Shown here: positions 11,612 through 53,560 of the stretch, piece by piece
Layout of the letters: each line of letters opens with the position of its first letter
Numbering within the stretch: position 1 is the first letter of the stretch
Source of the DNA: Emcibacter sp.
GTDB lineage: Bacteria; Pseudomonadota; Alphaproteobacteria; Sphingomonadales; Emcibacteraceae
NCBI GenBank assembly: GCA_021774875.1
Contig: JAJFIP010000352.1
Coordinates: 1 to 53,560, forward strand
Reading direction: 5' to 3'
Length of the DNA: 53,560 nucleotides
Made by a program: the position numbers and the translations under genes
The notes under the pieces: model-generated
Told to the model about the DNA's origin: nothing
The model's input: only the letters and a program-made list of their open reading frames with translations
Databases searched by the model: none

Positions 11612-11637
11612 ACTTAATTGTTGAAAATGAGGGTTTA

Positions 11638-18576: not shown

Positions 18577-19293
18577 ATGGGATTTTTGGAGAGGAATATG
18601 GGCTTGCTTTGCCAGCAGTGTCTGGCGCGAAATAGTGCCTTATGCTCGGCGATGGCTGATGATGAAATTGATCATTTGTTTTCCATCGCCCATCAGGTAA
18701 AGGTGGATGAAGGCGGCTATCTTCTTCATGAGGAAGACAGTGCCAAATTTGTCTATAACCTGTCTTATGGAGTATGCACGCTGGAACGCCTTGCCAGTGA
18801 CGGCAGCCGTCAGATCATGGCTTTTGTCTATCCCGGCGACTTTATCGGCATCAATTCCGGCCCCTTTTATAGTGTCAGTGTGCAGGCATTATCGCCGGTG
18901 ACGGCCTGCCGTTGGCAGATGAAGGATTTGCAGGACCTATATCACACCCACCCCATTCTTGAACAACGCGTCCATGAAATAGCCTCACGGGTACTGGCGG
19001 CAACCATGGACCAGCTTTTTGTCCTGGGCCGCAAAAATGCTGTGGAAAAAATTGCCTATTTTTTGCTTTATATTGACGGGAGGCAACGGAAATATGATGG
19101 TCATTCCGACAGTTTTATCCTGCCCATGACCCGCATTGACATTGCCGATTATCTCGGGGTTACCGTTGAAACCGTGAGCCGCGCTTTTTCCAGCCTTAAG
19201 AAAAAAGGCCTGATCGATTTATCACAAGCCTGGGTCGTGACGCTGAAAGACCGTGAAGGGCTGCGGGATGTGGTAGAGCATAGGGTTAATTGA
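18577..19293 (+). CDS. Crp/Fnr-family regulator, Fnr-type (candidate [4Fe-4S] oxygen sensor)
   Basis: N-terminal CQQCLARNSALC (CX2CX7C), central Cys (TACRW), cNMP-like beta barrel, HTH MTRIDIADYLGVTVETVSRAFSSLKKKGLI with E-x-x-S-R recognition helix. Confidence 0.9.
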   Translation: MGFLERNMGLLCQQCLARNSALCSAMADDEIDHLFSIAHQVKVDEGGYLLHEEDSAKFVYNLSYGVCTLERLASDGSRQIMAFVYPGDFIGINSGPFYSVSVQALSPVTACRWQMKDLQDLYHTHPILEQRVHEIASRVLAATMDQLFVLGRKNAVEKIAYFLLYIDGRQRKYDGHSDSFILPMTRIDIADYLGVTVETVSRAFSSLKKKGLIDLSQAWVVTLKDREGLRDVVEHRVN

Positions 19294-24788: not shown

Positions 24789-24813
24789 AGTGCTTTCTTT
24801 CCCGCTTAATGTA

Positions 24814-24831
24814 TTAATGATATAATGTTAT
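24814..24831. promoter_or_regulatory. TTAATGATATAATGTTAT, candidate GntR operator (degenerate)
   Basis: In divergent promoter of CaiB copy 3 and HMG-CoA lyase copy 2; shares GTATTAATGATATA with 11591. Confidence 0.45.
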
Positions 24832-24907
24832 AATAACTTGCCATTTCTGTCTATCTTTGTGTAGAATGATAGCATGTTTTTTTTAATGTGTGATGTGAAA
24901 TAAACGC

Positions 24908-25810
24908 ATGGTTGGAAATATTGAATTACTCGAAGTTTCCCCAAGGGACGGGCTTCAGAGTGAAGAAAAAATTATTGCAACTGAGGATAAGGTGGCCCTG
25001 ATAGAAAAGGCCATTGAGGCTGGTTTGCGCCGGATAGAGGTGACAAGTTTTGTGCATCCTAAACGTGTTCCCCAAATGGCCGATGCGGAAACGCTATTGA
25101 GCCTACTTCCAGAGAGACCGGATATTACCTATTCCGGGCTGGTTATGAATTATCGTGGTTTTGAGCGTGCGCGTGCGCTTGATATTGGTGAAATTGGTTT
25201 TGTTGTCGTGGCGTCCGAGACTTTCAACATGCGTAATCAGGGAGTGACGATTGAGGAAACCTTAACTCAATGGCAGCAGATTGCCCATGATGCCTGCGAA
25301 TGTGGCATTAAGGCCCAAGTGACTATCGGTGCAGCCTTTGGCTGTCCATTTGAGGGCGAAGTGAAGGTCTCGCAGGTAAGGAAAATAGTACAACGGGTCG
25401 CAGAATCTGGCCCGGTGGAGATTGGCTTTGCTGACACCATTGGGGTCGGTGTGCCAACACAGGTTCGTGATTTGATTGGTTCTGTAAGAGAAGATATACC
25501 TGATATTCCTCTGCGTTGTCATTTTCACAATAGCCGTAATACCGGGTATGCCAACGCGGTGGCGGCAGTGGCGGCTGGTGTAAAAACGCTGGATGCGAGC
25601 ATTGGCGGCATTGGCGGTTGCCCGTTTGCGCCCAATGCCACGGGAAATATTGCGACCGAGGATCTGGTTTATATGCTGGGTCGGATGGGGATTGAGACCG
25701 GACTAAATCTGGAGAAGTTAATTGACACCGCTCACTGGCTTGAAGGCATAGTAGAAAAGCCGGTACCGGGTCAGCTGTCAAAGGCGGGCGATTTTCCGCT
25801 TAAGAGATAA
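24908..25810 (+). CDS. HMG-CoA lyase-family protein (copy 2)
   Basis: EVSPRDGLQSEEKIIAT, CHFHNSRNTGYANAVAAV, GGIGGCPFAPNATGNIATEDLVYML. Confidence 0.9.
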   Translation: MVGNIELLEVSPRDGLQSEEKIIATEDKVALIEKAIEAGLRRIEVTSFVHPKRVPQMADAETLLSLLPERPDITYSGLVMNYRGFERARALDIGEIGFVVVASETFNMRNQGVTIEETLTQWQQIAHDACECGIKAQVTIGAAFGCPFEGEVKVSQVRKIVQRVAESGPVEIGFADTIGVGVPTQVRDLIGSVREDIPDIPLRCHFHNSRNTGYANAVAAVAAGVKTLDASIGGIGGCPFAPNATGNIATEDLVYMLGRMGIETGLNLEKLIDTAHWLEGIVEKPVPGQLSKAGDFPLKR

Positions 25811-34144: not shown

Positions 34145-35129
34145 AAATATTCAGATACGACTGAAAAACCGGCCTGAGAGTACGCCCGCAGTGGGTGATT
34201 TTGAAGTTGTTAAGGACAGTATGCCCGTGGCAGGAGACGGTGAGATATTATGCCGCAGTCTCTATCTGTCCCTTGATCCCTATATGCGTGGGCAGATCAG
34301 TGGTCGCCATATTTCCGGCGCCCTGCATCCGGGGGACATGATGCGGGGTGAGACAATTTCTGAAGTCGTAACCTCAGATCATCCGGATTATCAAGCTGGT
34401 GATCTGGTAGCCCATCAGGGCGGCTGGCAATGTTATTCAGTAGCGAAGGCGAGTGATCTTACTGCTGTTGACAGACGCATTAATCCGCATTCGCTGGCTC
34501 TTGGTATTCTGGGGATGCCAGGGCTTACTGCCTATGCCGGGATGACTTATCTGGCCGAATTGAAAAAGGGTGATCGGCTGGTGGTATCAGCAGCAAGTGG
34601 GGCAGTTGGTTCCATGGTTGGGCAAATCGCCAAACTCATGGGCTGTGAAGTGATCGGCATTGCAGGTTCTGATGAAAAATGTCGCTGGCTTACGGAACAA
34701 GCAGGATTTGAAGCTTGCATCAATTATAAAATTCAGGATTTAGCCGAGGGGCTAATACAATACTGTCCTGATGGAATTGATGTCTATTTCGACAATGTGG
34801 GCGGCGATACGCTGGAAGCGGCTATGTGGCAGCTTAGCCTCGGGGCGCGGGTTGTCCTATGTGGTCTGATGGCGCAATATAATAGCGATGTGATGCCACC
34901 CGGACCTAATCCTGCCACCATCATAAAGGCGAGGGCGACGGTTCGTGGACTTGTGGTTTATGACTTTTTTGATAAGAAACAGGAATTTCTCGACAAGGTA
35001 ATCCCGTGGGTTGATCAGGGCCGGATCAGCTACCAGGAAGATGTCACAGAAGGAATTGAGAATGCTCCCGCCGCTTTTGTCCGTCTGATGAGTGGCAAAA
35101 ATTTCGGCAAAACCATTATTAAATTCTAA
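34137..35129 (+). CDS. NADP-dependent MDR oxidoreductase (CurA/PTGR-like, copy 1)
   Basis: DGEILCRSLYLSLDPYMRGQISG...VVSAASGAVGSMVGQIAKLMGCEVIGIAGSDEKCRWL...DGIDVYFDNVGGDTLEAAM. Confidence 0.9.
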   Translation: MTENIQIRLKNRPESTPAVGDFEVVKDSMPVAGDGEILCRSLYLSLDPYMRGQISGRHISGALHPGDMMRGETISEVVTSDHPDYQAGDLVAHQGGWQCYSVAKASDLTAVDRRINPHSLALGILGMPGLTAYAGMTYLAELKKGDRLVVSAASGAVGSMVGQIAKLMGCEVIGIAGSDEKCRWLTEQAGFEACINYKIQDLAEGLIQYCPDGIDVYFDNVGGDTLEAAMWQLSLGARVVLCGLMAQYNSDVMPPGPNPATIIKARATVRGLVVYDFFDKKQEFLDKVIPWVDQGRISYQEDVTEGIENAPAAFVRLMSGKNFGKTIIKF

Positions 35130-35638
35130 CAAACCGCCATTGGCAAGGTTGAGGCATACTGACCTTGATGAAAGACCAGCGGTTTTTTTGCGCTGTGGTT
35201 ATGGGATAGCACCTCACCGACGAAAATAATATGGTCACCGCCATCATATTGGTGTTGGGTGCGACATTGCAGCAGGGCGGCACAGTCTTTCAGGACGGGT
35301 GTGTCGCCCAGACCCGGATAAATATCTATATTGGCAAATTTATCAACACCCGGACGGGCAAAACGGTTTGACATATCTTCCTGATCAATACTTAAAATAT
35401 GAATGTTGAAATATTCAGCATTCTGAAAACATGGGACACTATAGGAATCTTTTGCCAATGACCACAGAACCAATGGCGGATCCATGGAAACACTATTGAA
35501 GCTGCTGACTGTAATCCCCACAGGGCCGCCGTCGCTGTCCAAGGTGGTGATAATTGTGACCCCGGTAGCAAATTGACTGAGCGTGTCGCGAAAACCTTTC
35601 TTTTTGAAGTTTTCTTTTGTCATAATTGATTTTCTCAT
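35126..35638 (-). CDS. Flavin reductase domain protein (HpaC/HsaB-like)
   Basis: FRDTLSQFATGVTIITTLDSDGGPVGITVSSFNSVSMDPPLVLWSLAKDSYS; start may be internal Met at 35623. Confidence 0.9.
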   Translation of the reverse strand: MRKSIMTKENFKKKGFRDTLSQFATGVTIITTLDSDGGPVGITVSSFNSVSMDPPLVLWSLAKDSYSVPCFQNAEYFNIHILSIDQEDMSNRFARPGVDKFANIDIYPGLGDTPVLKDCAALLQCRTQHQYDGGDHIIFVGEVLSHNHSAKKPLVFHQGQYASTLPMAVC

Positions 35639-35672
35639 TAGCTATATCCGGAATGAAACTTAGCAAGAATAA

Positions 35673-35690
35673 TGGATCAAGATTGGATCA
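35673..35690. promoter_or_regulatory. TGGATCAAGATTGGATCA direct-repeat element shared with 47678
   Basis: Reverse complement contains TGATCCAATCTTGATCC, 16/17 identical to 47678-47694. Confidence 0.55.
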
Positions 35691-35701
35691 TCTGGAAAAA
35701 A

Positions 35702-35718
35702 TGACCATATAGTGGCCA
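35702..35718. promoter_or_regulatory. TGACCATATAGTGGCCA imperfect inverted repeat (TGRCCA-N5-TGGNCA)
   Basis: Same motif at 35794 and 47719; in flavin reductase / monooxygenase divergent region. Confidence 0.55.
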
Positions 35719-35793
35719 ATTTGAACCCGCTTTGCACAAAAAATCCAGAATGTATAAAGGCTAATGGCCCGTAATTGGGTAATTTCAGCTTGA

Positions 35794-35810
35794 TGACCAT
35801 TGTGTGGACA
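35794..35810. promoter_or_regulatory. TGACCATTGTGTGGACA imperfect inverted repeat (TGRCCA-N5-TGGNCA)
   Basis: Second copy in the same intergenic region. Confidence 0.4.
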
Positions 35811-35924
35811 ATCTCTGTTTTCTTCATATGCTATTTTGAACAGGCCTTATAAAGTCATGACAGAAGAACATATGTATGGCTCATATGTTGGCAATAATTT
35901 TCTTTGACAATATGGAGGATAGTG

Positions 35925-37136
35925 ATGACCGAAGTGACATTGGATGTGCTTTTGGAAAGAGCGCGTAGTCTCATTCCAGTACTTAAGGAACGCGCAGAAA
36001 AAACTGAGAATCTGCGACAGTTGACCGACGAGACTATGGCTGACCTTCACAGATTGGGCCTGCTGAAATACTATCAACCTAAAATGTTTGGTGGTTATGA
36101 GATGGATTGGGGGGCCCATATGGAAATAGCCTACGAACTGGCTCGGGGATGCACCTCCACTGCCTGGATACAATGTGTTGTTGGTGCTCATACCTGGATG
36201 GCGGCCCGACTTGATATGGAAGCCCAGAAAGAAATTTTTGCCAATCCTGATGTTTTGATCGCGACTGCATTTGCCGGTGGCCGTAATGTGTCGAGCAAAA
36301 AGGTTGATGGCGGATACATCCTGTCCGGGGAATGGTCATTTGCCAGTGGTTTGTCGCATTCAGAATGGTCCATTGTTGGCACCCAAACTGAAATGGCTAC
36401 CCGTGATGAATATGAAATGGTGCTTTTTGCTATACCAAAGGGCGACTTTGAATATGTGGACAACTGGTATGTTTCCGGGCTGAAAGGAACCGGATCCATG
36501 AATATTAAAGTGACCGAAGTATTCATTCCTGATCATCGTGCCATGGCAATCAATACTTTTGATACCGGAACAGCAGAAGGGGCCAAAGCCCATGAAAGCT
36601 ATACCTATCAAGCCTATATGCCAGAGTATTTCTTTTCGGTTCCTTTGGGGCCAATTGTCGGGACTGCGGTTGGGGCTATGGAAGCCTATCTTGAAATTAC
36701 CAAAACCAGAATTGGGGCCATGTTTGGCGAAAAAGTTGCCGAACAGATTCCTGTGCAAACCCGGATAGCAGAATCATCAGCTGAAATAGCCGCCGCAAAG
36801 CTGTTAAACAAGCGTGTCTTTGAGATGTTGCATTACCGGGGTCTTAGGGGTGAAAGGATTCCCAAAGATGAACTGGTACGGCTTAAGCGGGATTGTGTAT
36901 TCATTGGCAGACTTTGTTCCAATGCGGTCAGCCGTCTGGTCAAGATGATGGGAGCCAGTGGTTTGAGTGATAAAAACCCTGTTCAACGTTTCCATCGGGA
37001 CATGGAAGCCCTGACCGCGCATCAAAGCCAGCAATGGGAAATCGGAATGACTCCTATCGGACGGTGGGCACTGGGACTGGAAACAGGTAATGAAATCATT
37101 GATTCTGCGCCTGAAAAAAGCAACTATATGTTCTAG
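35925..37136 (+). CDS. Acyl-CoA dehydrogenase-fold flavin-dependent monooxygenase (HsaA-like)
   Basis: LPVLKERAEKTENLRQLTDETMADLHRLGLLKYYQPKMFGGYEMDW...; ATG 35925 after SD tggagg; divergent from flavin reductase. Confidence 0.85.
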   Translation: MTEVTLDVLLERARSLIPVLKERAEKTENLRQLTDETMADLHRLGLLKYYQPKMFGGYEMDWGAHMEIAYELARGCTSTAWIQCVVGAHTWMAARLDMEAQKEIFANPDVLIATAFAGGRNVSSKKVDGGYILSGEWSFASGLSHSEWSIVGTQTEMATRDEYEMVLFAIPKGDFEYVDNWYVSGLKGTGSMNIKVTEVFIPDHRAMAINTFDTGTAEGAKAHESYTYQAYMPEYFFSVPLGPIVGTAVGAMEAYLEITKTRIGAMFGEKVAEQIPVQTRIAESSAEIAAAKLLNKRVFEMLHYRGLRGERIPKDELVRLKRDCVFIGRLCSNAVSRLVKMMGASGLSDKNPVQRFHRDMEALTAHQSQQWEIGMTPIGRWALGLETGNEIIDSAPEKSNYMF

Positions 37137-37160
37137 ATCATAAAACAGGGTAATCAGGGA

Positions 37161-38192
37161 ATGATGCTGAATAAACAGCTGCGGCTTGCGCGGCATATCA
37201 GGGAACATGAAGCGGTTTCCCTGGACTTGTTTGAAATAACCGAAGAAGAAATCCCCACGCCCGGGGACGGGCAATTTCTGGTCAAGACGGAGGCACTGGG
37301 TACTTCTCCGGCTCAGCGGGCCTATCTGATGGGCAGTGACAGCCGTTTTCATCCCCCCTTGGATATTGGCGAGATTATGCGTGGCCGCGGGGTGGGACGG
37401 ATTATATCTTCCCGCCATCCTGATTTTAAAGAAGGTGATGTGGTTGCCTGCTCAACGGGCTGGCAATATTATTCTATACAGGATGGTGATCAATCAAGAT
37501 CATTGGTAAAAACCTTGCAGAAAATTCATCATCCGCAAGAGCCATTATACCTGCATCTGGGCACGCTTGGGGCGTCCGCTTTTGCGGCTTATTTTGGCTT
37601 TCTGGATATTGGAAGGCCTGTAGCCGGGGATAGGGTTGTGGTGTCGGCTTGTGCCGGCGGCGTTGGCTCACTTGTAGCTCAGATTGCCCGCATAAAAGGC
37701 TGCCGGGTGGTGGGTATAGCCGGTAGCCCCGAAAAATGTGCATGGATAAAAGATGTTGTCGGGGTTGATGAGGTCATAAATTACAGGACCGACAATCTTG
37801 ATGAAAAGCTGGCCGAATTTTGCCCGGATGGTATTGACATTTATTTTGACAATGTGGGCGGTGATTTTCTGGATACGGCCCTGAAAAATATTGCTCTCAG
37901 GGGACGGGCTGTAATCTGTGGCCTGATTTCCACTGAATATGAAAACACACCACCCCCCGGGCCACAGCATTATTATAACCTGATATACAGACGTGCGCGC
38001 ATGGAAGGCTTTTTCGTCTGGGATTATTTTGAACAGTTTGAAGCCGCCGAGGCAGAGTTAATGACATGGTATAAAAACGGCGACCTGACTCCGACAGAAA
38101 AAGTCTATCACGGACTTGAAGCAGCCCCGGAAGCCCTGCAAAGTCTTTTCGCTGGTATTGCGTCTGGTATTAAGGTGATTGATGTCAGTTAG
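37161..38192 (+). CDS. NADP-dependent MDR oxidoreductase (CurA-like, copy 2)
   Basis: GDRVVVSACAGGVGSLVAQIARIKGCRVVGIAGSPEKCAWIKDVVGVDEVINYRTDNLDEKLAEFCPDGIDIYFDNVGGDFLDTAL. Confidence 0.9.
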   Translation: MMLNKQLRLARHIREHEAVSLDLFEITEEEIPTPGDGQFLVKTEALGTSPAQRAYLMGSDSRFHPPLDIGEIMRGRGVGRIISSRHPDFKEGDVVACSTGWQYYSIQDGDQSRSLVKTLQKIHHPQEPLYLHLGTLGASAFAAYFGFLDIGRPVAGDRVVVSACAGGVGSLVAQIARIKGCRVVGIAGSPEKCAWIKDVVGVDEVINYRTDNLDEKLAEFCPDGIDIYFDNVGGDFLDTALKNIALRGRAVICGLISTEYENTPPPGPQHYYNLIYRRARMEGFFVWDYFEQFEAAEAELMTWYKNGDLTPTEKVYHGLEAAPEALQSLFAGIASGIKVIDVS

Positions 38193-38259
38193 TAGTATCT
38201 TTATATAGCTTATCGTTTGTATTGTTTGTTGCAGGATTCCCGTTGCTGGAGGTATTGTT

Positions 38260-39606
38260 ATGAAACTATATATAACAGGCATTATGGCGTTTCTATTTGT
38301 CAGTCTGACCATTGTTCAACCGGGGGAGGCGCGTCCCGGCAAGGCAAAAACGGACAATTATAAAATTATTTATGCAGGAACTCTGCTCTCAGTGCCAGGT
38401 AAAAAGCCGCAGAGTGATATGACGATCATTGTCAAGAATGACAGGATCGAAAGGATAGAAAAGGGATTTCTCTCAGCCGAGGCGCTTGGTGCTGATACCG
38501 ATTCCACAATTGAACTTATCGACCTGTCCGACAAATTTATTTTGCCCGGCCTGATGGACGCTCACGTTCACCTGAACCATCAGCCGACACGCAGCCGTCA
38601 CAGGAGACAGCGTGGTGACAGGGACAAGCCAACCGGCGCACAATCTGCTGTTAATACCATGGTTTATGCCCGCCGCACGCTGGCCGCCGGTTTTACGTCA
38701 GTCCGTGATCTAGGCTCTGATGACCAGTCGGTTTTTGCTGTGCGAGAGGCCATTAATAAAGGCCGCATGATCGGCCCACGTATTCTGGTTGCTGGTTCCG
38801 CGCTGGCTATCACTGGCGGCCATGGCGATTCTATTCCAATGGAAAAGACTGGTGATGCTTTGGCCCGGCTGAAAGATGGCACCTGTGATGGCCCAATGGA
38901 ATGCCGAAAAGCGGTGCGTTATCAGTATAAGCTGGGTGCTGACCTGATAAAATTTACCGCCACCGGCGGTGCTGCTTCCAATACCGGAATGGAATCACAG
39001 TTTTTTGCGGGCGAGATCCAGTCCATCGTCAAAACAGCACACCTACTGGGTCTGAAAGCCACCACACATGCCTATGCCGCTGGTGCTATCAAGGATGCGG
39101 TTCGGGCTGGTGTTGATTCTATCGAGCATGGTTTCCTGCTCGATGATGAGGGCATCCAGATGATGAAGAAGCAGGGCGTGTGGCTGGTGCCGACTATATC
39201 AGCCAGTTACCCACCGCCAATTCTCAAAATTCCCGATCCTGAGTCAGTGAAACTGCGCAATAAATATCGGGCCTTTGAGCGTGCCTATGCCGCCGGGGTA
39301 AAAATTGCCTTCGGGTCCGATGCCGGTACTTTCACCCACGGCACTAATGCCAAGGAGTTTGACATGATGGTGGGTTTTGGCATGACCGAAATGGATGCCA
39401 TATATGCCGCGACAGTTTCAACTGCCCGGTTATTTGGCATTGATGATGAGGTTGGAACCCTTGAAGCCGGAAAATTGGCTGATATAATTGCCGTAAAGGG
39501 CAGTCCTTTGAGCGATATATCGCTGCTTCACAAGATTGATTTTGTCATGAAGGGCGGAAAAATTGCCAAATATAAAGGGCAGATGACAGAGCCTTTTTCA
39601 TATTAA
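38260..39606 (+). CDS. Exported amidohydrolase (imidazolonepropionase-like metal-dependent hydrolase)
   Basis: Signal peptide; KFILPGLMDAHVHLNHQ...TLAAGFTSVRDLGSDDQSV...IKFTATGGAASNTGMESQFF...GSDAGTFTHGTNAKEF. Confidence 0.87.
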   Translation: MKLYITGIMAFLFVSLTIVQPGEARPGKAKTDNYKIIYAGTLLSVPGKKPQSDMTIIVKNDRIERIEKGFLSAEALGADTDSTIELIDLSDKFILPGLMDAHVHLNHQPTRSRHRRQRGDRDKPTGAQSAVNTMVYARRTLAAGFTSVRDLGSDDQSVFAVREAINKGRMIGPRILVAGSALAITGGHGDSIPMEKTGDALARLKDGTCDGPMECRKAVRYQYKLGADLIKFTATGGAASNTGMESQFFAGEIQSIVKTAHLLGLKATTHAYAAGAIKDAVRAGVDSIEHGFLLDDEGIQMMKKQGVWLVPTISASYPPPILKIPDPESVKLRNKYRAFERAYAAGVKIAFGSDAGTFTHGTNAKEFDMMVGFGMTEMDAIYAATVSTARLFGIDDEVGTLEAGKLADIIAVKGSPLSDISLLHKIDFVMKGGKIAKYKGQMTEPFSY

Positions 39607-42600
39607 TCAGCGTTTTCTGAGTGTGAGCGTTAGAGGCACCTGACTATCACCACGGTTTACTGCTATATCAACCTTATCACCGGGGTTATATTTGCCTAAG
39701 ATAGCGGTATAATCGCGAAGATTTGTCACTGGCTTGCCGCCAAATGACGTAATGATGTCCCCGGCCAGAAGACCGGCTTCTGCACCCGCACTGTCTGGAG
39801 CCACCTGTGCAACTTTGACCCCCTTGCCGGAAAAAGCAAAATCCGGCATGGCTCCTGTGCTCACCTTGCGACCACTGCGCTGATTTGCGGGTGGCAACAC
39901 TTTGGTTGCATTTGGGTCAGCAGGTTTCAGGGTCGAGGTAAGAGGTTCTGGTCGTCCGCCCAGATATTCGACCACCTCCTTGGTAAGAGCCGCCACTTTC
40001 ATCAGGCTGGCCACTTTTATGGTATCCGCTTTGTCACCCGGCCTGTGATACTCACCTGTGGGACTTCCGAACAGGTGAATTGCTGGCACACCGACCTCTG
40101 TGAAAGCAGTATGATCACTGGCATTGACGTCCTGCATGACAAGATCGGTGCCGATGCCTGTTGTCGCCGTTGTTCCCATAAAAATAAATCGCCACTCGGT
40201 GGCAGATGTGCCGCCAAATACCATAATTTTTTCTCCGGCCCGACCCACGGTGTCCAGATTGACATTGGCAATGGCCTTTGATGCGGGATAGTCTTTCATA
40301 GCCTTGACATAATGACGCGCACCCAGTAGCCCGGATTCCTCTGCCGTGGTGGCGAGGAAGATAATAGTGCGGTCCGGGGCCGATTTTGCCATAGATTTTG
40401 CCAGTTCCAGCAAGACAGAAACGCCGGAAGCATTGTCATCGGCACCGGGATGAATTTGTCCGGCATATGCTGCTCTGACACCGGGCCAGCCAAATCCAAG
40501 ATGGTCATAATGAGCTGACAGAACCACAGACTGACCGTTCAGTTTCGGGTTCTTTCCGGGAATAATGCCGATGACATTTTTGACTGTAACCGGCTTATCA
40601 TCAGGGCCTGCCACTTCAAATGACTGAAACCAGCCGCCCTTGTCCCCCAGTGGTGTAAGACCATATGAAGCAAAGCTGTCGGCAATATAGCTGGCGGCTT
40701 TCTCAAGCCCCTTAGTGCCGACCCCGCGACCTTCCAGTTCGGGTGATGCCAGATGTTCAACATGTGACATCATGCGCTTGCCGTCAAATACCGGTTTGAG
40801 TTGTGCCAGAGCAGGACGGGGTTTTAACTTGGCTGTGGATTGGGTATTTGCATCCAAAATGGCAACCAGAGGGGAGCCAACCGCAGGCCATTGTCCTTTG
40901 GCACTATTATCCGGCGCATCATTGGCAAACGCCAGATAACTGTATTTTCCGTAATGGGGCAGCTTGCGGGCAAGTCCCTTAACAGCCGCATCATTATGAA
41001 CCGTCAGGCCAACAATAACGCTTTGTGGGTTGGCGGGATTACGCACCGCAATTACAGTCGAGTTATCCAGCATCGATAATCTTTGCTTGCCAAAGCTAAT
41101 TTCGCCCGCATTTATGTCGGCATCATAATTATCCAGGCCAGACTTTACCACATCATAAAAACGGTTGTTGCTGCCCAAAACCCAAATGGCACCATCTTTT
41201 GGCAGTTCCCTAATCTCATTGTCTTTGAGAACGGCCATTTTACCACCGCTCCAGATGGAAGCCATTTCCTGATAGCGTTTTTTGAGCAGGTCAGAGGTGT
41301 GGGTCGGCAGGATCATAACCACTTTTTTCGCACCGAACGCATTACCGAGAGAAGGCGGTATTTCGGCCCAATGTAATCTGCGGAACAGATCAAATTCCGG
41401 GTCAACTTCAATGCGGACGACTTTACCTTTGACAAAAATGTCATAGTCCTGAGATATTTGATCCATTTGCAGCATATGGCTTTCTACCTTATCCTCGGTA
41501 TAGACGGCAACGGGCACCTGAAGAGTAAAGGGTGCGTGTTTCTGGACTTGCTCCAATGTAAATTTTAGGTTTTCGCCTGATTGAATGGCTTGGGCTATTG
41601 TCAATTCCGGTGCTCCGGTATCATCAACCCATTGGGTAAAAAATGATTTCAGATCGCGACCTGTTGTTTCCTCGAATGCCACACGAATATCATCAAAAGT
41701 ACCGACTTCAAATTTATGATTGCGGTAAAAACGCTGGAAACTGCGTTTGAAATCATCGTCACCCACAATATTCCGCAGCATGTTCCACATCATACTGGTT
41801 TTGCCATAGCCAACGGCTTCGGTCACTGCATTGTGGCGGCTTCTGAAATCACGTAGCGGAAAGTCAGTATTCTCATCCACATAATTAGTGTAGCGTTGCA
41901 GGGTGGACCGCCGATAATCACCGCCCTTGCCGCGCTGCTCGGCGACCAGATGGTCTGCCATATAAGCGGTTAGCCCTTCGGCCCAATTTCCAGTTTCAAA
42001 GTCTATGAATACGCCGTTGCCCCACCAGTTATGCAACAATTCATGGGGGTAACTGCTATGGAGGATAAAGGGAAAACGAATGATTTGTGAGCCGAGAAGA
42101 GTAAAGGATGGCATACCGTATCCGGTTTCCCAGAAATTCTCCACTAATGCAAATTTAGTATAGGGGTAGGGGCCAAGGATACCCCGATACATTTCCAAAT
42201 ATTGTGCCGTGGTTTCCAGATATTTATTGGCCATCGCATCATCAGGTGTGCGCAGAAATGCCATGGCTTTCACATTACCAACTGGTAATTCATACTCAGT
42301 GAATTTAGCCGCTATCAGGTAAATTTCTTCGGTCGGTGTATCTGCCTTCCAGCCGTCTGTGTGGAAATCTTCCGTCACATATTTTATCCGCGCACCCTGA
42401 CTTACCGAACGCCAATCAGCGGGCATTTTCACTGTGATGTCATAGGTGATCAAGGTATCTTTCACTGTTGGTACCCAGTATGTGGCACCGGTCAGATAAA
42501 CCCCGCGCTCTTCAATGAGGCCAGGTGACTGGGAAAAACCACGGGCATATTCCTCGTTTAGCTCTTTGACCGGATTATTGATTTTGCCGGAAAGTTCAAG

Positions 42601-42957
42601 GGTAAGTATTACGGACGCCCCCGATTTGATGCCGCGCAGTTCATAATCTGTGACTTTTATGATGGTATTTTTATTGTCATTGTCACGGTCTATGCCAATG
42701 TCTTCTGCATTTTGACCTTCTATCACTTTTTCAAGACTTACCGTGCCGTCTATTTTCATTACAGCAAGATCACTATTGATTTGTAAAATCATGCCGTCTT
42801 GGGCCAGTGATGCCGGAATAGTTATTACATCAGTTGCGGTCAACTGATGACTGGTCGGGTCAAGGGAAACTGACATTTTATGATGAACGGTATCGCCAGC
42901 ATTTGCCACGCTGACAGCAATGAAAAATACTATGATGGTTATTATGGATCTGAGCAT
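39607..42957 (-). CDS. Exported M1-like / M28-like / PDZ multidomain zinc peptidase
   Basis: 1116 aa; M1-like HELLHNWWGNGVFIDFETGNWAEGLTAYMADH; M28-like VVLSAHYDHLGFG...HPGADDNASGVSVLLELA...TAEESGLLGA; C-terminal PDZ GVKVAQVAPDSAGAEAGLLAGDIITSFGGKPV. Confidence 0.9.
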   Translation of the reverse strand: MLRSIITIIVFFIAVSVANAGDTVHHKMSVSLDPTSHQLTATDVITIPASLAQDGMILQINSDLAVMKIDGTVSLEKVIEGQNAEDIGIDRDNDNKNTIIKVTDYELRGIKSGASVILTLELSGKINNPVKELNEEYARGFSQSPGLIEERGVYLTGATYWVPTVKDTLITYDITVKMPADWRSVSQGARIKYVTEDFHTDGWKADTPTEEIYLIAAKFTEYELPVGNVKAMAFLRTPDDAMANKYLETTAQYLEMYRGILGPYPYTKFALVENFWETGYGMPSFTLLGSQIIRFPFILHSSYPHELLHNWWGNGVFIDFETGNWAEGLTAYMADHLVAEQRGKGGDYRRSTLQRYTNYVDENTDFPLRDFRSRHNAVTEAVGYGKTSMMWNMLRNIVGDDDFKRSFQRFYRNHKFEVGTFDDIRVAFEETTGRDLKSFFTQWVDDTGAPELTIAQAIQSGENLKFTLEQVQKHAPFTLQVPVAVYTEDKVESHMLQMDQISQDYDIFVKGKVVRIEVDPEFDLFRRLHWAEIPPSLGNAFGAKKVVMILPTHTSDLLKKRYQEMASIWSGGKMAVLKDNEIRELPKDGAIWVLGSNNRFYDVVKSGLDNYDADINAGEISFGKQRLSMLDNSTVIAVRNPANPQSVIVGLTVHNDAAVKGLARKLPHYGKYSYLAFANDAPDNSAKGQWPAVGSPLVAILDANTQSTAKLKPRPALAQLKPVFDGKRMMSHVEHLASPELEGRGVGTKGLEKAASYIADSFASYGLTPLGDKGGWFQSFEVAGPDDKPVTVKNVIGIIPGKNPKLNGQSVVLSAHYDHLGFGWPGVRAAYAGQIHPGADDNASGVSVLLELAKSMAKSAPDRTIIFLATTAEESGLLGARHYVKAMKDYPASKAIANVNLDTVGRAGEKIMVFGGTSATEWRFIFMGTTATTGIGTDLVMQDVNASDHTAFTEVGVPAIHLFGSPTGEYHRPGDKADTIKVASLMKVAALTKEVVEYLGGRPEPLTSTLKPADPNATKVLPPANQRSGRKVSTGAMPDFAFSGKGVKVAQVAPDSAGAEAGLLAGDIITSFGGKPVTNLRDYTAILGKYNPGDKVDIAVNRGDSQVPLTLTLRKR

Positions 42958-43054
42958 TTTAGCTCCCCTCTGGAATTATAAAATTTTGCCCTAGTCTGAC
43001 GCGAGGATTTTAGCACACAAGACACCGCTAATATACTAACCAGCAGATGGTCAG

Positions 43055-44353
43055 TTATTGGACTGTAACAAGTTTTTTGTAGGCTGCCGGAGTTTTGCGT
43101 AGCAGAATGAACGCCGGAATACATAAAAAGAACGCCACATAGCTCATGCTTTCATTTATCCGCATTTCATCGCCCAGAATAACGTCAGTCACGAAGGGCA
43201 CCGAACTTGGCCCGATCAGCAATCCCGTCATGCTGATGAACATATAATAGAAAGCCATAATCTGAGCACGCATATTGGCTGGCGCAATGGTCATCAGGGT
43301 AGCTGGTCCCGCGGCTGTGGTCATGGTAAAGCCAAATATTGTCGCCTGATAAACCATGAAAGATGACAACTGAGTTGGCATCAAAGGATATACAATGCAA
43401 AGCGGTAATAACACTATGATACCCAGTCGCATAACATGCAAAGCGGCATCAGGCTTGCCTTTTTTGGTAAAACTGTCAATGAGGAAGCCTGCACTGATAA
43501 TGCTGACCGGACCAATGGCCAGAATACTGAACCCGGTATATTTCATATATTCCGCAGCTTCCCAGCCAAATGTTCTACTGAAAAAAGGCGCATTCCAGAT
43601 TGTCGTGTAATAGGCACAGATTGTCATGATCCCGCCCATGGAAAAAATCCCCAGATAAACTGCACGCTGCCCTATGATATGACGAACTGTGTCGGCAATA
43701 CTGCAGGGCTGTAGCGCATCGTCCTTATTTCGTGCTGGTTCTTTAATCAGCAGCAGCAACAGTGCAATCAGCAGCCCTGTTAGTCCCAAAATCACAAAGA
43801 TAAGATGCCACGGTTTTTCAATACCGTAGGAGGTGAGGTTGGTAAAATCGAAGTCTTCTGCAAATCTTAACAGATAAGCCACCAGCAGGCTGCCAAATCC
43901 TATTCCGATCGACAGGGCGCTTGAATATAGCGCGATGGCCCGACCCCTTTTTTCCTTGGGAAACATATCGGTAATCATCGACATGGTGCAGGGGCTTAAG
44001 GTGGCTTCTCCTGCACCCACCATCATGCGGGCAACGAATAATCCGCCAAAACTACGCACCAGACCACATGCTGCTGTAGCCACAGACCAGATGACAACCC
44101 CGGCAGCGATAATATTGCGCCGGTTTGAACGATCTGCAAACCAGGCTATGGGGATACCCATAGTGGCATAAAAAATAGCAAAAGCCGTACCACTGAGCAT
44201 TCCCATCTGGGTATCGGTAAAATTAAAATCTGCCTTGATAGGTTCTATAAGTAACCCAAGAACAGAACGATCAATATAAGAAAATATATAGGCCAGCGTG
44301 AGCAACAGCACAGTAAGCCAAGCCTTGATCGGCTTTGGATAAGATTCAGACAT
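43055..44353 (-). CDS. MFS transporter (Spinster-like)
   Basis: LTLAYIFSYIDRSVLGLLIEPIKADFNFTDTQMGMLSGTAFAIFYATMGIPIAWFADRSNRRNII. Confidence 0.9.
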   Translation of the reverse strand: MSESYPKPIKAWLTVLLLTLAYIFSYIDRSVLGLLIEPIKADFNFTDTQMGMLSGTAFAIFYATMGIPIAWFADRSNRRNIIAAGVVIWSVATAACGLVRSFGGLFVARMMVGAGEATLSPCTMSMITDMFPKEKRGRAIALYSSALSIGIGFGSLLVAYLLRFAEDFDFTNLTSYGIEKPWHLIFVILGLTGLLIALLLLLIKEPARNKDDALQPCSIADTVRHIIGQRAVYLGIFSMGGIMTICAYYTTIWNAPFFSRTFGWEAAEYMKYTGFSILAIGPVSIISAGFLIDSFTKKGKPDAALHVMRLGIIVLLPLCIVYPLMPTQLSSFMVYQATIFGFTMTTAAGPATLMTIAPANMRAQIMAFYYMFISMTGLLIGPSSVPFVTDVILGDEMRINESMSYVAFFLCIPAFILLRKTPAAYKKLVTVQ

Positions 44354-44374
44354 TCATACGCCCCTGATTTACTT

Positions 44375-44722
44375 TTATTTTATAAAAGCTTTATAAGCCA
44401 GACCATCGACCGCATCGCCAGCGGCCCCGTAAAATACATTATAGCTAATATCCTGCCAGATATTGGCCTTAAAATAGGGGTCAGCCTCTAGCATGACTTG
44501 CGCCTCCTGCCTATCAGCTTTATAGACCAGAATTGAACCACACACCGTTTTCCCGTCATCGGCTAAAACCGGACCTGCGACTAATATATCATCAATAGTT
44601 TTTTCCACATGATCCAGATGGACTTTCAGAGTCTCCTGACGCTTTTTGTTAATTTCTGCGCCGGGCTTGTCCGTACAGATTACTATGGTGAATATTTTAT
44701 CTAGGGGGAAAGAGTTGCTCAT
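44375..44722 (-). CDS. YciI-like protein
   Basis: 115 aa; FTIVICTDKPGAEINKKRQETLKVHLDHVEK...VLADDGKTVCGSILVYKADRQEAQVMLEADPYFKANIWQDI. Confidence 0.75.
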   Translation of the reverse strand: MSNSFPLDKIFTIVICTDKPGAEINKKRQETLKVHLDHVEKTIDDILVAGPVLADDGKTVCGSILVYKADRQEAQVMLEADPYFKANIWQDISYNVFYGAAGDAVDGLAYKAFIK

Positions 44723-44734
44723 TTTACTTTTTCC

Positions 44735-46168
44735 TTATGGCTTGGAATTTACTTCGTCAAATTGATCTATGGTGAAGACCTCTGCATTATTGGTCATAAT
44801 GGATTGCTTGCGGAAAAAACGCAAGTAACCACTTGGTCCCATGCGCGAAGCCCCCATACCGCTAAGTTTGAATGAATTTTTTTCCGCTTCATACATAAGA
44901 CTGGTGAGGGCGGCATCATTAATACTGATAGCCCCGGCTTCTATGCGCTGGCCGACGGCTATGGCTTCTTCTGCCGTAGCGGCAAATACACTGGCACTCA
45001 GGCCAAATTCGCTGTCGTTGGCCATGGTGATGGCATCGTCCACCTTGTCAAAAGCAATGACCGGCAACAGGGGGCCAAATGTTTCCTGGCTCATGATCAG
45101 CATGTCACTGGTAATGTCCGTTATTACTGTTGGGGCGCACCATAACCCGCCATGTTTTTCAATCTGGCCACCTGTATGGATGGTACCACCTTTTTCTCGG
45201 GCGTCCTTTATTTGGTCCTCAATAATATCCGCCTGTCGTTCAAAAATAATCGGGCCCAGATGGCCGGCATGAATATCAGGTGTGTTGAGGCGCACTTTAT
45301 TGGCCTTTGCGACCAGTTCTCCTACAAATTCATCGAAAATAGGTCGTGCCACATAGACCCGTTCAATGGACTGACAGCCCTGCCCACTGTTTATTATTGA
45401 AGCCCTCAGGATTGCGGTCGCCGCCCTATCCAGATCGGCATTTTCCAACACGATAGCCGGGTCTTTGCCGCCTAGCTCCAGAAAGGCGACAGAAAAATTC
45501 CGGGCGGCTTGTTCTGCCACCTTGCGGCCTGTGGCGACACTGCCTGTGAAGCAGATAACATCAACCTGATCGACAAGTGTCTGACCTGTTTCCCCGTCGC
45601 CGTCAATAATAGTTAATACCGATTTCAGTTCAGGAATTTGTGCGATAATTGCACGTAGAGGCTCGGCAAATCTCGGGGTTACCTCACTTGGTTTAATGAT
45701 AACCGCGGCACCTGCCAACAATGCAGGAATTGCATCTATCAAGGCAAGGGTAAGCGGGAAATTCCACGGGCTAATGACCCCGACCAGAGCATAGGGCCTT
45801 TTGTCAATGCTATAGCTGATAAAGGGCAGGGCCGTTGAGACGCCATGTGTCGGCTCTTGTGCATCAGTTGCGATTTTTACCCAACGTTCAATACTAGGGG
45901 CGATACTGTCAACTTCCATGATGGAAATGCCCAGACGTCCCGTGTCCTGAACCAATGCCTGAGTCAATTCTTTGTGGTTATCTTTGAGTGCTGTGCCAAA
46001 GGAACGTAATATGCTAATTCTGTAATCAAGACCACTGTCGCACCAGTTTTTCCGGGCCGCACGCAATTTTTGGCATGTTTGCCTGATGTCAGTTTTGCTG
46101 TTTGCGGTAAACTGATAATCCATCAGACCGGTTCGTGGATTCCGGGTCTGAATTTTTCGCCCTGTCAT
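44735..46168 (-). CDS. NAD(P)-dependent aldehyde dehydrogenase
   Basis: PYALVGVISPWNFPLTLALIDAIPALLAGAAVIIKPSEVTP...FTGSVATGRKVAEQAA...LELGGKDPAIVLENADLDRAA...NSGQGCQSIERVYV. Confidence 0.93.
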   Translation of the reverse strand: MTGRKIQTRNPRTGLMDYQFTANSKTDIRQTCQKLRAARKNWCDSGLDYRISILRSFGTALKDNHKELTQALVQDTGRLGISIMEVDSIAPSIERWVKIATDAQEPTHGVSTALPFISYSIDKRPYALVGVISPWNFPLTLALIDAIPALLAGAAVIIKPSEVTPRFAEPLRAIIAQIPELKSVLTIIDGDGETGQTLVDQVDVICFTGSVATGRKVAEQAARNFSVAFLELGGKDPAIVLENADLDRAATAILRASIINSGQGCQSIERVYVARPIFDEFVGELVAKANKVRLNTPDIHAGHLGPIIFERQADIIEDQIKDAREKGGTIHTGGQIEKHGGLWCAPTVITDITSDMLIMSQETFGPLLPVIAFDKVDDAITMANDSEFGLSASVFAATAEEAIAVGQRIEAGAISINDAALTSLMYEAEKNSFKLSGMGASRMGPSGYLRFFRKQSIMTNNAEVFTIDQFDEVNSKP

Positions 46169-46467
46169 AAATCTTCGACCCCTTCAATTAACCGCACACG
46201 TACCGTTGAATTGCCTTGTCGTAATTTTTTGATTTCACGGTATCGCTCACTATACCAGAAAGCCCGCGCCTGTTCCATAGTTGGCCATTTTGAGATTACC
46301 AGCCTGGTTTCATCGGGCCAGTCACCCTCCAGGCACTGACTTTCGCCGGTTCCCCTTGCGATATATTTACCGCCAAGTTCGTCCACCAATTCTGCAACGC
46401 TTGTCGCATAATTTTTAAAGCTTTCAGGGTCACTTATCTCGGCGAGTATGACCATATAGGCTGCCAT
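46165..46467 (-). CDS. DUF1330 family protein
   Basis: MAAYMVILAEISDPESFKNYATSVAELVDELGGKYIARGTGESQCLEGDWPDETRLVISKWPTMEQARAFWYSERYREIKKLR. Confidence 0.85.
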   Translation of the reverse strand: MAAYMVILAEISDPESFKNYATSVAELVDELGGKYIARGTGESQCLEGDWPDETRLVISKWPTMEQARAFWYSERYREIKKLRQGNSTVRVRLIEGVEDL

Positions 46468-46476
46468 TACAGTTTG

Positions 46477-47604
46477 CTATTCCTGGTTCAGTAACGGCAC
46501 CTCGTCAAGCACCCATCCATCTTCAATACGGCGGCGGGGTGAGGGGATGGCATGAACAATTTTGCCAGTGGCCAGATCCGCATTCATCTTCTTGACATCT
46601 ATGCGCCAGCCTCTTTTCTCATAACTCTTGATATGATCGCGGTATTTGACGATGCAGCTGTCAGCAGGCACCATAAATTCATTTGTTATATCATAGGGTG
46701 TCTGAATGGGTTCAACCTCGGCAAGGACATCAATATCCTGCTGGGCGACAATCAAATTCCTCGCGCGCAGTCTGGCTCCCATGTCATTATCAAGTCCCGC
46801 ATTGCGCATATTTACTAAAAACACCCGGGTCGTATTTTCATCAACAGGCAGGTCATAGCTATATTGATGCATGAAAAAAGAGCCGCTGGGATGAATTCTG
46901 GTCCAGAATTGCGATGGTCCAAAGGTGCCGGATCCGGCCTGTGTGGTTTGTTTATCACGTAATTTTGAATATTCTTCGTCTGGAGTTCCACTTGATTCAT
47001 AGTCGGCCATGAAGCCAACACCCCATTCTTCTTCAATCAGCTCCAATTTTGGCACTGAATAGTCAGGCCGATCACCCGAAAAGCCGTGGGTGGGATGCAC
47101 ATATTCATTATGTGCCGGATCAATGGCATTTTCTATGGACCGCTGGTAACTGGTTTCCAGATCATAAGTCTGGATATTGGCCGCCCAGCCTTCCTGACCA
47201 TATTCAACGGCATCCAGCAGAGGTGGTCGATCTTCTTCGGGCAAGTCGCCGAGAAAAACAAAAATGATATTGTATTTTTCCTGCACAGGATATGAGTCTA
47301 TTTTTGCCTTTGGCGGGATTTTTGCTTCCATTCCACGAGATGGGATACTAACGCAATCGCCATTTTTATCAAATTGCCAGCCATGATAGGGGCATTGGAT
47401 ATTATTGCCAACCACCTTGCCCGGCGCGGCATCCCCCTGACAGGCTAATGACCCTCCCCGGTGAATACAGACATTGCTCAGGCAATGTGCTTCACCATTT
47501 TCATCTCGAAATAATGCGAAGTTACATCCAAGCATCTTCACTTTAAGAGGCCGTTCGGAGAGCTCTTCACTGAGACAAGCGGGATACCAAAAATTGATAA
47601 ACAT
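46477..47604 (-). CDS. Rieske [2Fe-2S] aromatic-ring-hydroxylating-type oxygenase, alpha subunit
   Basis: Rieske ligands CIHRGGSLA...IQCPYHGWQF; mononuclear Fe site ENAIDPAHNEYVHPTHG. Confidence 0.9.
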   Translation of the reverse strand: MFINFWYPACLSEELSERPLKVKMLGCNFALFRDENGEAHCLSNVCIHRGGSLACQGDAAPGKVVGNNIQCPYHGWQFDKNGDCVSIPSRGMEAKIPPKAKIDSYPVQEKYNIIFVFLGDLPEEDRPPLLDAVEYGQEGWAANIQTYDLETSYQRSIENAIDPAHNEYVHPTHGFSGDRPDYSVPKLELIEEEWGVGFMADYESSGTPDEEYSKLRDKQTTQAGSGTFGPSQFWTRIHPSGSFFMHQYSYDLPVDENTTRVFLVNMRNAGLDNDMGARLRARNLIVAQQDIDVLAEVEPIQTPYDITNEFMVPADSCIVKYRDHIKSYEKRGWRIDVKKMNADLATGKIVHAIPSPRRRIEDGWVLDEVPLLNQE

Positions 47605-47677
47605 TGTATTTTCCTTCCAAAATGCGTTTGATTAAATTTCAAACTACCAAAATAACATATTTCTACATCGTAAACAT

Positions 47678-47694
47678 TGATCCAATCTTGACCC
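47678..47694. promoter_or_regulatory. TGATCCAATCTTGACCC element shared with 35674-35690
   Basis: Upstream of Rieske gene; 16/17 match on opposite strand to 35674-35690. Confidence 0.55.
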
Positions 47695-47718
47695 GGTGCC
47701 AAATAGCAGCTGTCAAAG

Positions 47719-47735
47719 TGGCCATATACTGGTCA
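47719..47735. promoter_or_regulatory. TGGCCATATACTGGTCA imperfect inverted repeat, followed by extra TGGTCA half-site at 47742-47747
   Basis: Same TGRCCA-N5-TGGNCA class as 35702 and 35794. Confidence 0.55.
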
Positions 47736-47938
47736 TTAAAATGGTCATAGAACAAAAAAAACACTGAGAAATATCCTTCTTAGATAATTGGCTTGTGAAT
47801 TTATTACTTGCTTGCCATACAATTTTATATGTTCTTGTATGAGCACGGAATCGAGTCTATGGATAAGTTACAAATGAAAAAGTTAATCACGTTAAAGTAT
47901 AAAGTGGGTAATAACTTGTCCATAACAGGGAACTCTAT

Positions 47939-51558: not shown

Positions 51559-51810
51559 GAAGGTCCCTGATTGTTATTATGCTTCTTCTCAACATAAATT
51601 AAAATGAGCATAAATAGCAGTTACCAAAGGCAACCACAGGATGGTCAGTTTTAGAATAATTTAAGTGAAACGCATGACCCCTTCACCCAATGCGTATAAT
51701 TAGTTATGCTGACAAAATGGACCATATATTAACAGGATTATATTTTGAGGGGTGTGGTGCGTTAATTTACCCCTCTTGATTTTTTATTTTTATTAACGGC
51801 AGTTCCAAAG

Positions 51811-53025
51811 ATGAAAAAATTGATCATACGAAAAAATGACTTATTAAAAAGAACACTGAAATGGTTACTGCCCATCATTGTGATAGGTGTGGGGCTTGCC
51901 ATCAGTAGTGTAATACGAAATTCTCGCCCCGAAGTGGCGATTGCATCGCCTGAGAAAACTATTGCCATTATAAGGGGGGTTATAGCAGAAAAATCGTCTT
52001 TTCAACCGACTATACATGCTCAGGGAACCGTTAAAGCAAAGCAAAAGATTGAGTTAGTGCCAGAAGTTGCCGGTAAGATCATATGGGTGTCCCCCGACTT
52101 TGCCGAAGGAGGACTGTTCAGTGAGGGTGGTGCTCTGGTTCTCATTGACCCCCGAAATTATCAGTTTGCGGTTTCACGGGCCCGGGCAAGTGTTGCCGAT
52201 GCCCGCAATATACTAACCCTCGAGATGGCAGAGGCTGAACTGGCCAAAACCGAATGGGAGGAATTGGGAAAGGGGGACGCCAGTGCATTGGTATTGCGTG
52301 AACCGCAGCTGGAAAGTGCCCGTGCCAAACTTGCTTCTGCTGAAGCGGATCTGGAGCGGGCTGAGTTGGATCTTGAGCGTACCACCCTCAAGGCCCCGTT
52401 TGATGGCCGTATTGAGGAAAAAAAGGTTGATATTGGCCAATATGTATCACTGGGCAATAATCTTGCCGTACTTTATTCCACAGATATTGCGGAAATTTTG
52501 TTGCCACTTACGGATAAGGAATTGGGAAAACTCGATTTGCAGCTAATCTATGATGACGAAGCTGCAGCCTTAAAACCATTGGCGGTAAAATTATTTGCCT
52601 CTTTTGGGGGCAAGCGCAGAAGCTGGAATGGTAACATTGTACGAACTGCCGGAACAGTGGACCTGAATAGTCGAATGCTTAGCGTAATTGTCGAAGTGAA
52701 AAATCCGTATCAGGTTCATGAGGGAGCTGCGCCATTACTGAATGGCCTATTTGTTGAGGTTGAGATACCGGGCAAAGAAATGCAGGATGTTTTCATTCTG
52801 CCTAGATCAGCACTGCATAACCAAACTCAAGTCGTGCTAGTTGATAAGAATGATACATTGAGATCACAAGATATAGAGATCATACATTCAACACCCCAAA
52901 AAATTATAATTAGGGGTTTGAAGGATGGGGACAGGGTCAATATATCACCTCTGGAAATTCTGATTGAAGGGTCAAAGGTCAAATGGCAACTGGCCAGCAA
53001 AGATATTGGGGGAGATAGCCCATGA
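51811..53025 (+). CDS. RND efflux periplasmic adaptor (HlyD/MFP family)
   Basis: TIHAQGTVKAKQKIELVPEVAGKIIWVSPDFAEGGLFSEGGALVLIDPRNYQFAVSRARA...LERTTLKAPFDGRIEEKKVDIGQYVS. Confidence 0.92.
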   Translation: MKKLIIRKNDLLKRTLKWLLPIIVIGVGLAISSVIRNSRPEVAIASPEKTIAIIRGVIAEKSSFQPTIHAQGTVKAKQKIELVPEVAGKIIWVSPDFAEGGLFSEGGALVLIDPRNYQFAVSRARASVADARNILTLEMAEAELAKTEWEELGKGDASALVLREPQLESARAKLASAEADLERAELDLERTTLKAPFDGRIEEKKVDIGQYVSLGNNLAVLYSTDIAEILLPLTDKELGKLDLQLIYDDEAAALKPLAVKLFASFGGKRRSWNGNIVRTAGTVDLNSRMLSVIVEVKNPYQVHEGAAPLLNGLFVEVEIPGKEMQDVFILPRSALHNQTQVVLVDKNDTLRSQDIEIIHSTPQKIIIRGLKDGDRVNISPLEILIEGSKVKWQLASKDIGGDSP

Positions 53026-53560
53026 AGGGCATGGTTAACTGGTTTGCCAGAAATCCCGTTGCGGCTAATTTGATGATGATTGCCATCATTTTTGGTGGCT
53101 TTATGAGCTTGTCAAATCTAAACCGTGAAATTATGCCATCAATGCCTGCCAAATTTATTGAAGTTTCTGTCGCCTATCTCGGGGCTGATCCGGTGGAAGT
53201 AGAAGACCGGATATCCATTCGCGTTGAAGAAGCTATTCAAGAGGTGGAGGGGATAATTAATATCAATTCCATTGCCTCACAGGGGTTGGGAGTAGTCAGG
53301 GCGGAAATTCTCGCCGGATATGATCTGCAAAAGGTTCTGAACGAAATCAAGGTACAGGTAGATGCCATCAATACCTTTCCCCAGGAGGGCGAGCGGCCAA
53401 ACGTCAAAATAATAAAATTCAAGGAACGGGTCATTCAGGTGGCAGTACTTGCTGACACTGATGAAAAATCCTTGAAAGTTATCGCCCAAAGAGTCCGTGA
53501 CGATTTAGCGGCATTGCCGGGGGTGGATTTTGCCGAAATGAAAGGGGATAGGCGATATGA
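53022..53560 (+). CDS. RND efflux transporter permease (AcrB family), truncated at window end
   Basis: ATG at 53022 overlaps MFP stop (ATGA); MKGMVNWFARNPVAANLMMIAIIFGGFMSLSNLNREIMPSMPAKFIEVSVAYLGADPVEVEDRI... open to window edge; not in ORF track because no stop. Confidence 0.92.
   Translation, partial: MKGMVNWFARNPVAANLMMIAIIFGGFMSLSNLNREIMPSMPAKFIEVSVAYLGADPVEVEDRISIRVEEAIQEVEGIININSIASQGLGVVRAEILAGYDLQKVLNEIKVQVDAINTFPQEGERPNVKIIKFKERVIQVAVLADTDEKSLKVIAQRVRDDLAALPGVDFAEMKGDRRY

Follow-up and report, generated by a model that had tools for sequence, protein, structure and literature searches.

We analysed a 53,560-nucleotide contig of an Emcibacter sp. genome (GenBank JAJFIP010000352.1, contig C282 of genome G000; hereafter the window), which carries a flavin-dependent monooxygenase with its flavin reductase and, some 12 kb away, a Rieske oxygenase operon. 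Both loci are preceded by a 17-bp palindrome with the consensus TGRCCA-N5-TGGYCA and the full form TGACCA-N5-TGGTCA. This palindrome very probably serves as the operator through which an IclR-family regulator, resembling MhpR, PcaR and PobR, runs the catabolic island to which both loci belong. At the level of sequence, the basis for this reading consists of conserved sites, conserved linkage and co-occurrence of the genes.

The palindrome in the Emcibacter genome and its relatives

The initial annotation of the window quoted three palindromes and two copies of a 17-mer, all of which match the sequence at their coordinates. The palindromes at 35702-35718 and 47719-47735 fit the consensus exactly, and the one at 35794-35810 has a single mismatch (TGGACA). 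The exact consensus occurs only five times in the 3.9-Mb genome, and three of these copies lie within the 64 kb made up of the window and the end (segment L041) of a second contig of the same genome, C112 (binomial P = 4e-5). When one mismatch was allowed, this 64 kb contained seven copies, as against 1.2 expected (P = 2e-4). The exact copy on C112 precedes an IclR-family gene by 83 bp, and a one-mismatch copy on the same contig lies before the neighbouring operon for a CN-hydrolase, an aldehyde dehydrogenase (ALDH) and an MFS transporter. We did not retain as regulon sites the exact copies at C101:12099, which is inside an open reading frame, and at C2:1561, whose contig has DUF1559/pilin-like genes and looks foreign. 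A one-mismatch site at 24694 lies within a CoA-transferase gene that has no site in the relative G012, and was attributed to chance. Contig C2 (L040) carries DUF1559 genes with a pilin-type N-terminus and FG-GAP genes, a content more typical of planctomycetes; in this genome, which derives from a metagenome, the contig may be a contaminant.

The comparison covered 16 genomes of the genus, the relatives with named records being marine Emcibacter-type metagenome genomes, and the genome G046, from another family of the order. In the relatives, the site was found at six common promoters, those of the Rieske operon, the monooxygenase, the M28 peptidase, HlyD, the CN-hydrolase/ALDH operon and the IclR regulator gene itself. 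The monooxygenase operator keeps its position, some 110 bp ahead of the start codon, in G006, G008, G009, G011, G012, G013 and G018, and the Rieske operator is kept in all six relatives that have the region. The M28 site is at the equivalent place in G006, G008, G013 and G018, and five relatives have a stronger HlyD site, CGACCA-N5-TGGTCA, at the equivalent place. The regulator gene is preceded by a site in six genus genomes as well as in G046. Among 40 aligned sites, ACCA (positions 3-6) and TGG (positions 12-14) are invariant. The initial annotation had named single copies scattered commonly through the genome, including inside genes, as what would speak against a regulatory role. The palindrome does not show this pattern: of the relatives' island sequence, the 138 kb mapped as coding hold 4 sites and the other 45 kb hold 32, a 24-fold higher density outside coding sequence (P = 7e-16). 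One extra exact copy, in G011 (contig C179), is inside an open reading frame and was discarded as a regulon site.

The strongest single piece of independent support is provided by G046. Its sole exact copy of TGACCA-N5-TGGTCA in 3.1 Mb is upstream of the 65%-identical orthologue of the regulator, and a one-mismatch copy precedes an operon in which the CN-hydrolase, ALDH and MFS genes come first and a Rieske gene (53%) after them. Judged by sequence conservation, the palindrome is a real, conserved element.

The regulator gene and its probable linkage to the oxygenase loci

The product of the gene on C112 has the two domains of the IclR family, an N-terminal helix-turn-helix (PF09339, 45.7 bits, cut-off 22) and a C-terminal effector domain (PF01614, 30.2 bits, cut-off 24), and its 260 aa agree with the family's length of about 250 residues. 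Its best-scoring models were those of PRK09834, which we take to be MhpR, at 162.5 bits (cut-off 269) and 158.3 bits (cut-off 251), and it scored 105.6 bits against TIGR02431 (PcaR/PcaU/PobR; cut-off 284.75); these values place it outside both of the narrower families. The best match in the PDB was 8eju, a solved Pca regulon regulator.

The last 535 bases of the window (53026-53560) are the start of an AcrB-type pump gene, and the end of C112 (L041 8770-10715) is the remainder of such a gene. Since the two contig ends fall in one AcrB gene and align to G006 about 640 bp apart, the regulator gene would start about 2.6 kb past the end of the window. By synteny, C282 and C112 appear to be neighbours with about 640 bp missing between them, and the distance from the regulator gene to the Rieske start, within one gene island, would be about 8.6 kb. 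Five relatives (G006, G008, G011, G012 and G018) carry the IclR gene at a distance of about 7 kb from the Rieske operon on a single contig, which in G012 also contains the monooxygenase. Both oxygenases are present in the same eight of the 16 genus genomes; the regulator was found in seven of these eight and in none of the other eight. This co-occurrence is not independent evidence because the genes are linked, but it fits nonetheless.

The initial annotation had proposed that an unlinked regulator controls both oxygenases. That one regulator controls both through the palindrome, from a gene outside the window, is very probable; the regulator is probably not unlinked, however, as synteny puts it in the same island beyond a contig break. 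A contig edge can thus make a linked regulator appear unlinked. It had also been stated that the window has no obvious regulator gene; in fact it contains GntR/UTRA, Crp-type and extracytoplasmic function (ECF) sigma factor genes (Table 1), none of which is linked to the palindrome by any evidence.

Predicted promoter architecture and mode of action

Candidate -10 boxes were located downstream of the palindrome at distances of 31 bp (IclR), 30 bp (CN-hydrolase), 40 bp (SGL), 39 bp (monooxygenase), 38-39 bp (flavin reductase) and 47 bp (HlyD). Shuffling of alignment columns gave P values for these conserved -10-like hexamers of 0.010 (IclR), 0.020 (SGL), 0.040 (CN-hydrolase) and 0.050 (monooxygenase), and HlyD and flavin reductase were matched in 0 of 500 shuffles. 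Two points weaken this evidence: these are single-promoter values, with eight promoters tested, and the -10 boxes of Rieske and M28 were not significant (P = 0.278 and 0.098, respectively), so that the activator-type position rests on the other promoters. Relative to the starts predicted from these boxes, the operator would be centred at about -51, -60 or -68. An operator upstream of the -35 element is typical of an activator, and on balance we lean towards activation by the regulator.

The same protein, bound to the same operator, could instead act as a repressor or a dual regulator that, from its upstream position, blocks RNA polymerase or bends the DNA until released by an effector. The -10 positions are predictions, those for Rieske and M28 without significance, which leaves room for this alternative; at the supported -10 boxes, however, the centre of the operator falls between about -51 and -68, which is upstream of the -35 element, and in no case does it cover the -10 box or the start. 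We regard repression or dual control as possible, though the less favoured mode.

With activation as the preferred mode, the IclR regulator would autoregulate and co-ordinate a catabolic island that extends over some 30 kb or more. Its regulon would comprise the Rieske operon, the flavin monooxygenase/flavin reductase pair, the M28 peptidase, the HlyD/AcrB-type exporter and the CN-hydrolase/aldehyde dehydrogenase/MFS operon. Most likely, the protein would sit as a dimer some 51-68 bp ahead of each start and recruit RNA polymerase to weak promoters, the co-inducer being an aromatic or related compound of the pathway. An isolated motif is thereby turned into a testable regulon of uncultured Emcibacter-type marine bacteria, in which a single regulator would govern a defined set of genes through six predicted promoters. 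IclR regulators usually answer to a substrate or intermediate of their own pathway, and the inducer would point to what the Rieske/flavin monooxygenase island degrades.

Probable identity of the protein that binds the palindrome

Besides the promoter statistics given above, several observations weigh against the assignment of the palindrome to this regulator. The junction of C112 with the window is deduced from synteny and is not assembled sequence. G013 has both oxygenases, and the regulator was not found in this genome, which is 62% complete. The G046 monooxygenase has no site at up to two mismatches, and the site at 51631 has two mismatches in the Emcibacter genome itself. Positions 3 and 15 of the sites are mostly A and T, as against T and A in the consensus of group 1 of IclR operators (see below). 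The sites had been picked by eye before they were tested.

The palindrome could belong to a different, truly unlinked regulator of which the IclR gene is merely another target. The binder of a palindrome is not identifiable from sequence alone, and genes for GntR/UTRA and Crp-type regulators are nearby in the window. Against this, the length and symmetry of the palindrome match IclR group 1, it accompanies the IclR gene across two families and stands directly before the regulator gene each time, and no other regulator is tied to it. We consider a different binder unlikely. The sites lie before the regulator's own gene, the CN-hydrolase operon and other genes, as in an autoregulated local regulon of the IclR type, and binding of the palindrome by this IclR protein is very probable.

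The 17-mer shared by the two loci

The initial annotation had described two independent motifs common to both loci, the second being a 17-mer. Its two copies agree at 16 of 17 bases, and no others exist in the genome at up to one mismatch. Of 3000 shuffles, 3 produced a match this good (16/17) between the two intergenic regions. In Markov shuffles, 5-29 such pairs arose by chance per whole window, and about 3% of shuffles gave one within intergenic sequence alone; by these figures the pair is mildly unusual.

None of six relatives, examined for their best shared 17-mer against shuffles, had one above chance (best match 12-14 of 17; shuffle fraction 0.17-1.0). Measured downstream from the palindrome, the 17-mer begins after 11 bp at the 35702 locus and after 24 bp at the Rieske locus; its orientation with respect to the downstream gene is reversed between the two, and its position relative to the candidate promoter also differs. 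The Rieske promoters of the relatives conserve TTTGGCAC followed by AAAATTGGATCAAAATCC; the 17-mer covers the ATTGGATCA part, whereas conservation does not extend to its GGGTCAAG half. The flavin reductase/monooxygenase locus of the relatives shows no more than a loose ATTGG, placed 15 bp before the palindrome. A second motif independent of the palindrome is thus not borne out, the 17-mer being conserved in no relative and placed differently in the two loci.

A VanR-type operator is the palindrome ATTGGATCCAAT. The 17-mer was rejected as a VanR-like operator: only ATTGGATCAAT is present, and the core ATTGGATC-N0/1-AAT (11-12-mers) occurs 10 times in the genome. A literature search on the VanR-like reading gave nothing useful. 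That a second regulator common to both oxygenase loci uses TGATCCAATCTTGAYCC as its operator is very unlikely: the rarity of the 17-mer, the 3/3000 figure for this region pair and the conservation of its ATTGGATCAA part at Rieske promoters are outweighed by its failure in all six relatives, its inconsistent offset and orientation and the abundance of its core. The 17-mer pair appears to be mostly a coincidence, lying over a real but Rieske-specific promoter element.

Probable operator duplication between flavin reductase and monooxygenase

Upstream of the monooxygenase, the relatives have about 160-200 bp with one palindrome, whereas this genome has 265 bp with two palindromes, 92 bp apart. 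The best self-match of the region is at offset 92 (25 of 40 bases, partly the palindrome itself). The 35702 copy retains the flavin-reductase-side flank and the 35794 copy the monooxygenase-side flank, and for each of the two genes a palindrome stands 39 bp before the candidate -10 box. Sequence and spacing suggest that the one operator seen in the relatives was probably duplicated in tandem in this genome. Through such a duplication, flavin reductase and monooxygenase would each have their own operator copy.

Features of the window and its surroundings

The coordinates of the features are collected in Table 1. The M28 protein, of 1116 aa, combines its M28 peptidase domain with an M1-like peptidase part and, at the C-terminus, a PDZ domain. 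G011 and G008 have about 3 kb between the ALDH and YCII genes of the Rieske operon (L078 936-4048 and L080 15583-18693, respectively), and the window has none. For the MFS protein of the CN-hydrolase operon (L041:2337-3656), the best models were MamH/MamZ, magnetosome transporters, at 171.5 bits, below the cut-off of 300. Two pairs of HMG-CoA lyase-like and CoA-transferase III genes (10621-12822 and 23571-25810) share inverted DNA matches of 16-17 out of 17 bases and on this account look like paralogous copies; a further CoA-transferase is at 15420-16622.

Table 1. Genes, predicted operators and candidate promoter elements. Positions are those of the window unless a segment is named.
Feature	Position	Strand	Remarks
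Palindrome TGACCATATAGTGGCCA	35702..35718		Exact; predicted additional operator copy for flavin reductase, in this genome only
Palindrome TGACCATTGTGTGGACA	35794..35810		Predicted operator upstream of monooxygenase, conserved in relatives
Palindrome TGGCCATATACTGGTCA	47719..47735		Reads TGACCAGTATATGGCCA toward the Rieske gene; predicted Rieske operon operator, conserved
External half-site TGGTCA	47742..47747	-	Adjoins the Rieske operator; this genome only
Palindrome TAACCAGCAGATGGTCA	43037..43053		One mismatch; predicted operator upstream of M28 peptidase gene
Palindrome CAACCACAGGATGGTCA	51631..51647		Two mismatches; predicted operator upstream of HlyD, between OprB and HlyD
Candidate -35 TTGGCA	47697..47702	-	Rieske promoter, in TTTGGCAC; conserved
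Candidate -10 TAAGTT	35657..35662	-	Flavin reductase; 39 bp after palindrome 35702
Candidate -10 TAAAGT	35850..35855	+	Monooxygenase; 39 bp after palindrome 35794
Candidate -10 TATAAT	51695..51700	+	HlyD; 47 bp after palindrome 51631
17-mer TGATCCAATCTTGATCC	35674..35690	-	Between palindrome 35702 and flavin reductase gene; not conserved
17-mer TGATCCAATCTTGACCC	47678..47694	+	Minus-strand ATTGGATCA part within block conserved at relatives' Rieske promoters
IclR-family regulator gene	L041:7959-8741 (contig C112)		260 aa
Flavin reductase	35126..35638	-	Pfam PF01613
Two-component flavin-dependent monooxygenase, oxygenase component	35904..37136	+	HsaA / HpaH C2-like
M28 peptidase	39607..42957	-	Predicted regulon member; conserved in relatives
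Rieske operon	43055..47604	-	Rieske oxygenase, DUF1330, ALDH, YCII, MFS
Rieske oxygenase	46477-47604	-	VanA-type C-terminus
HlyD-type membrane fusion protein	51811..53025	+	Followed by AcrB-type pump start, running off the window end
ECF sigma factor	3691-4464		With FecR-like anti-sigma protein, joint span 2600-4464
GntR/UTRA regulator	12823-13629		
Crp-type regulator	18577-19293		

Comparison with known IclR systems

A literature search on IclR regulation in Emcibacter returned nothing relevant. A variant operator with TGACCA in place of TGTYCR arms may define an unusually wide IclR regulon (at least six promoters, in a marine oxygenase island), and in this species the one bidirectional operator between flavin reductase and monooxygenase may have been duplicated in tandem into two dedicated ones, a rewiring step that comparison with the sister species brings to view; for this combination as a whole, the chances seem to us slightly short of even.

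As a rule, an IclR regulator acts on its own gene plus one or two operons next to it, and the group-1 sites of the family are 17 bp long, with the consensus TGTYCRYW3RYGRACA or GKTYCRYW3RYGRAMC (Suvorova and Gelfand 2021, PMC8222616). The palindrome resembles the TGT-11-ACA subgroup of this group (PMC8222616) in its 17-bp length, two outer arms and 5-bp variable centre, as well as in C/R at positions 5/6 and Y/G at positions 12/13, and the monooxygenase sites have the canonical right arm TGGACA. Besides the bases at positions 3 and 15, it differs in having G at position 7 in 13 of the 40 sites and in serving at least six promoters, more than is usual for the family.

MhpR of E. coli is an IclR-family activator of 3-(3-hydroxyphenyl)propionate degradation. 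Its operator is also 17 bp long, GGTGCACCTGGTGCACA (Table 1 of PMC8222616). The regulator described here shares with MhpR the operator length and has its best scores with the PRK09834 models, but its operator is unlike GGTGCACCTGGTGCACA, the genes predicted to be under its control have no relation to the mhp pathway and its score, below the curated cut-off, indicates that the two are not orthologues. In E. coli the MhpR operator has its centre near -58, not far from the -60 predicted for the present regulator. PcaR, PcaU and PobR, which serve protocatechuate and 4-hydroxybenzoate catabolism, belong to the same aromatic branch of the IclR family, and the external half-site beside the Rieske operator, seen in this genome only, recalls PcaU and PobR. 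The operator arms differ from those of PcaR/PcaU/PobR, the regulator has no adjoining protocatechuate genes and it scores below the family cut-off. The palindrome thus delineates a new regulon, as yet a predicted one, of a known kind of regulator.
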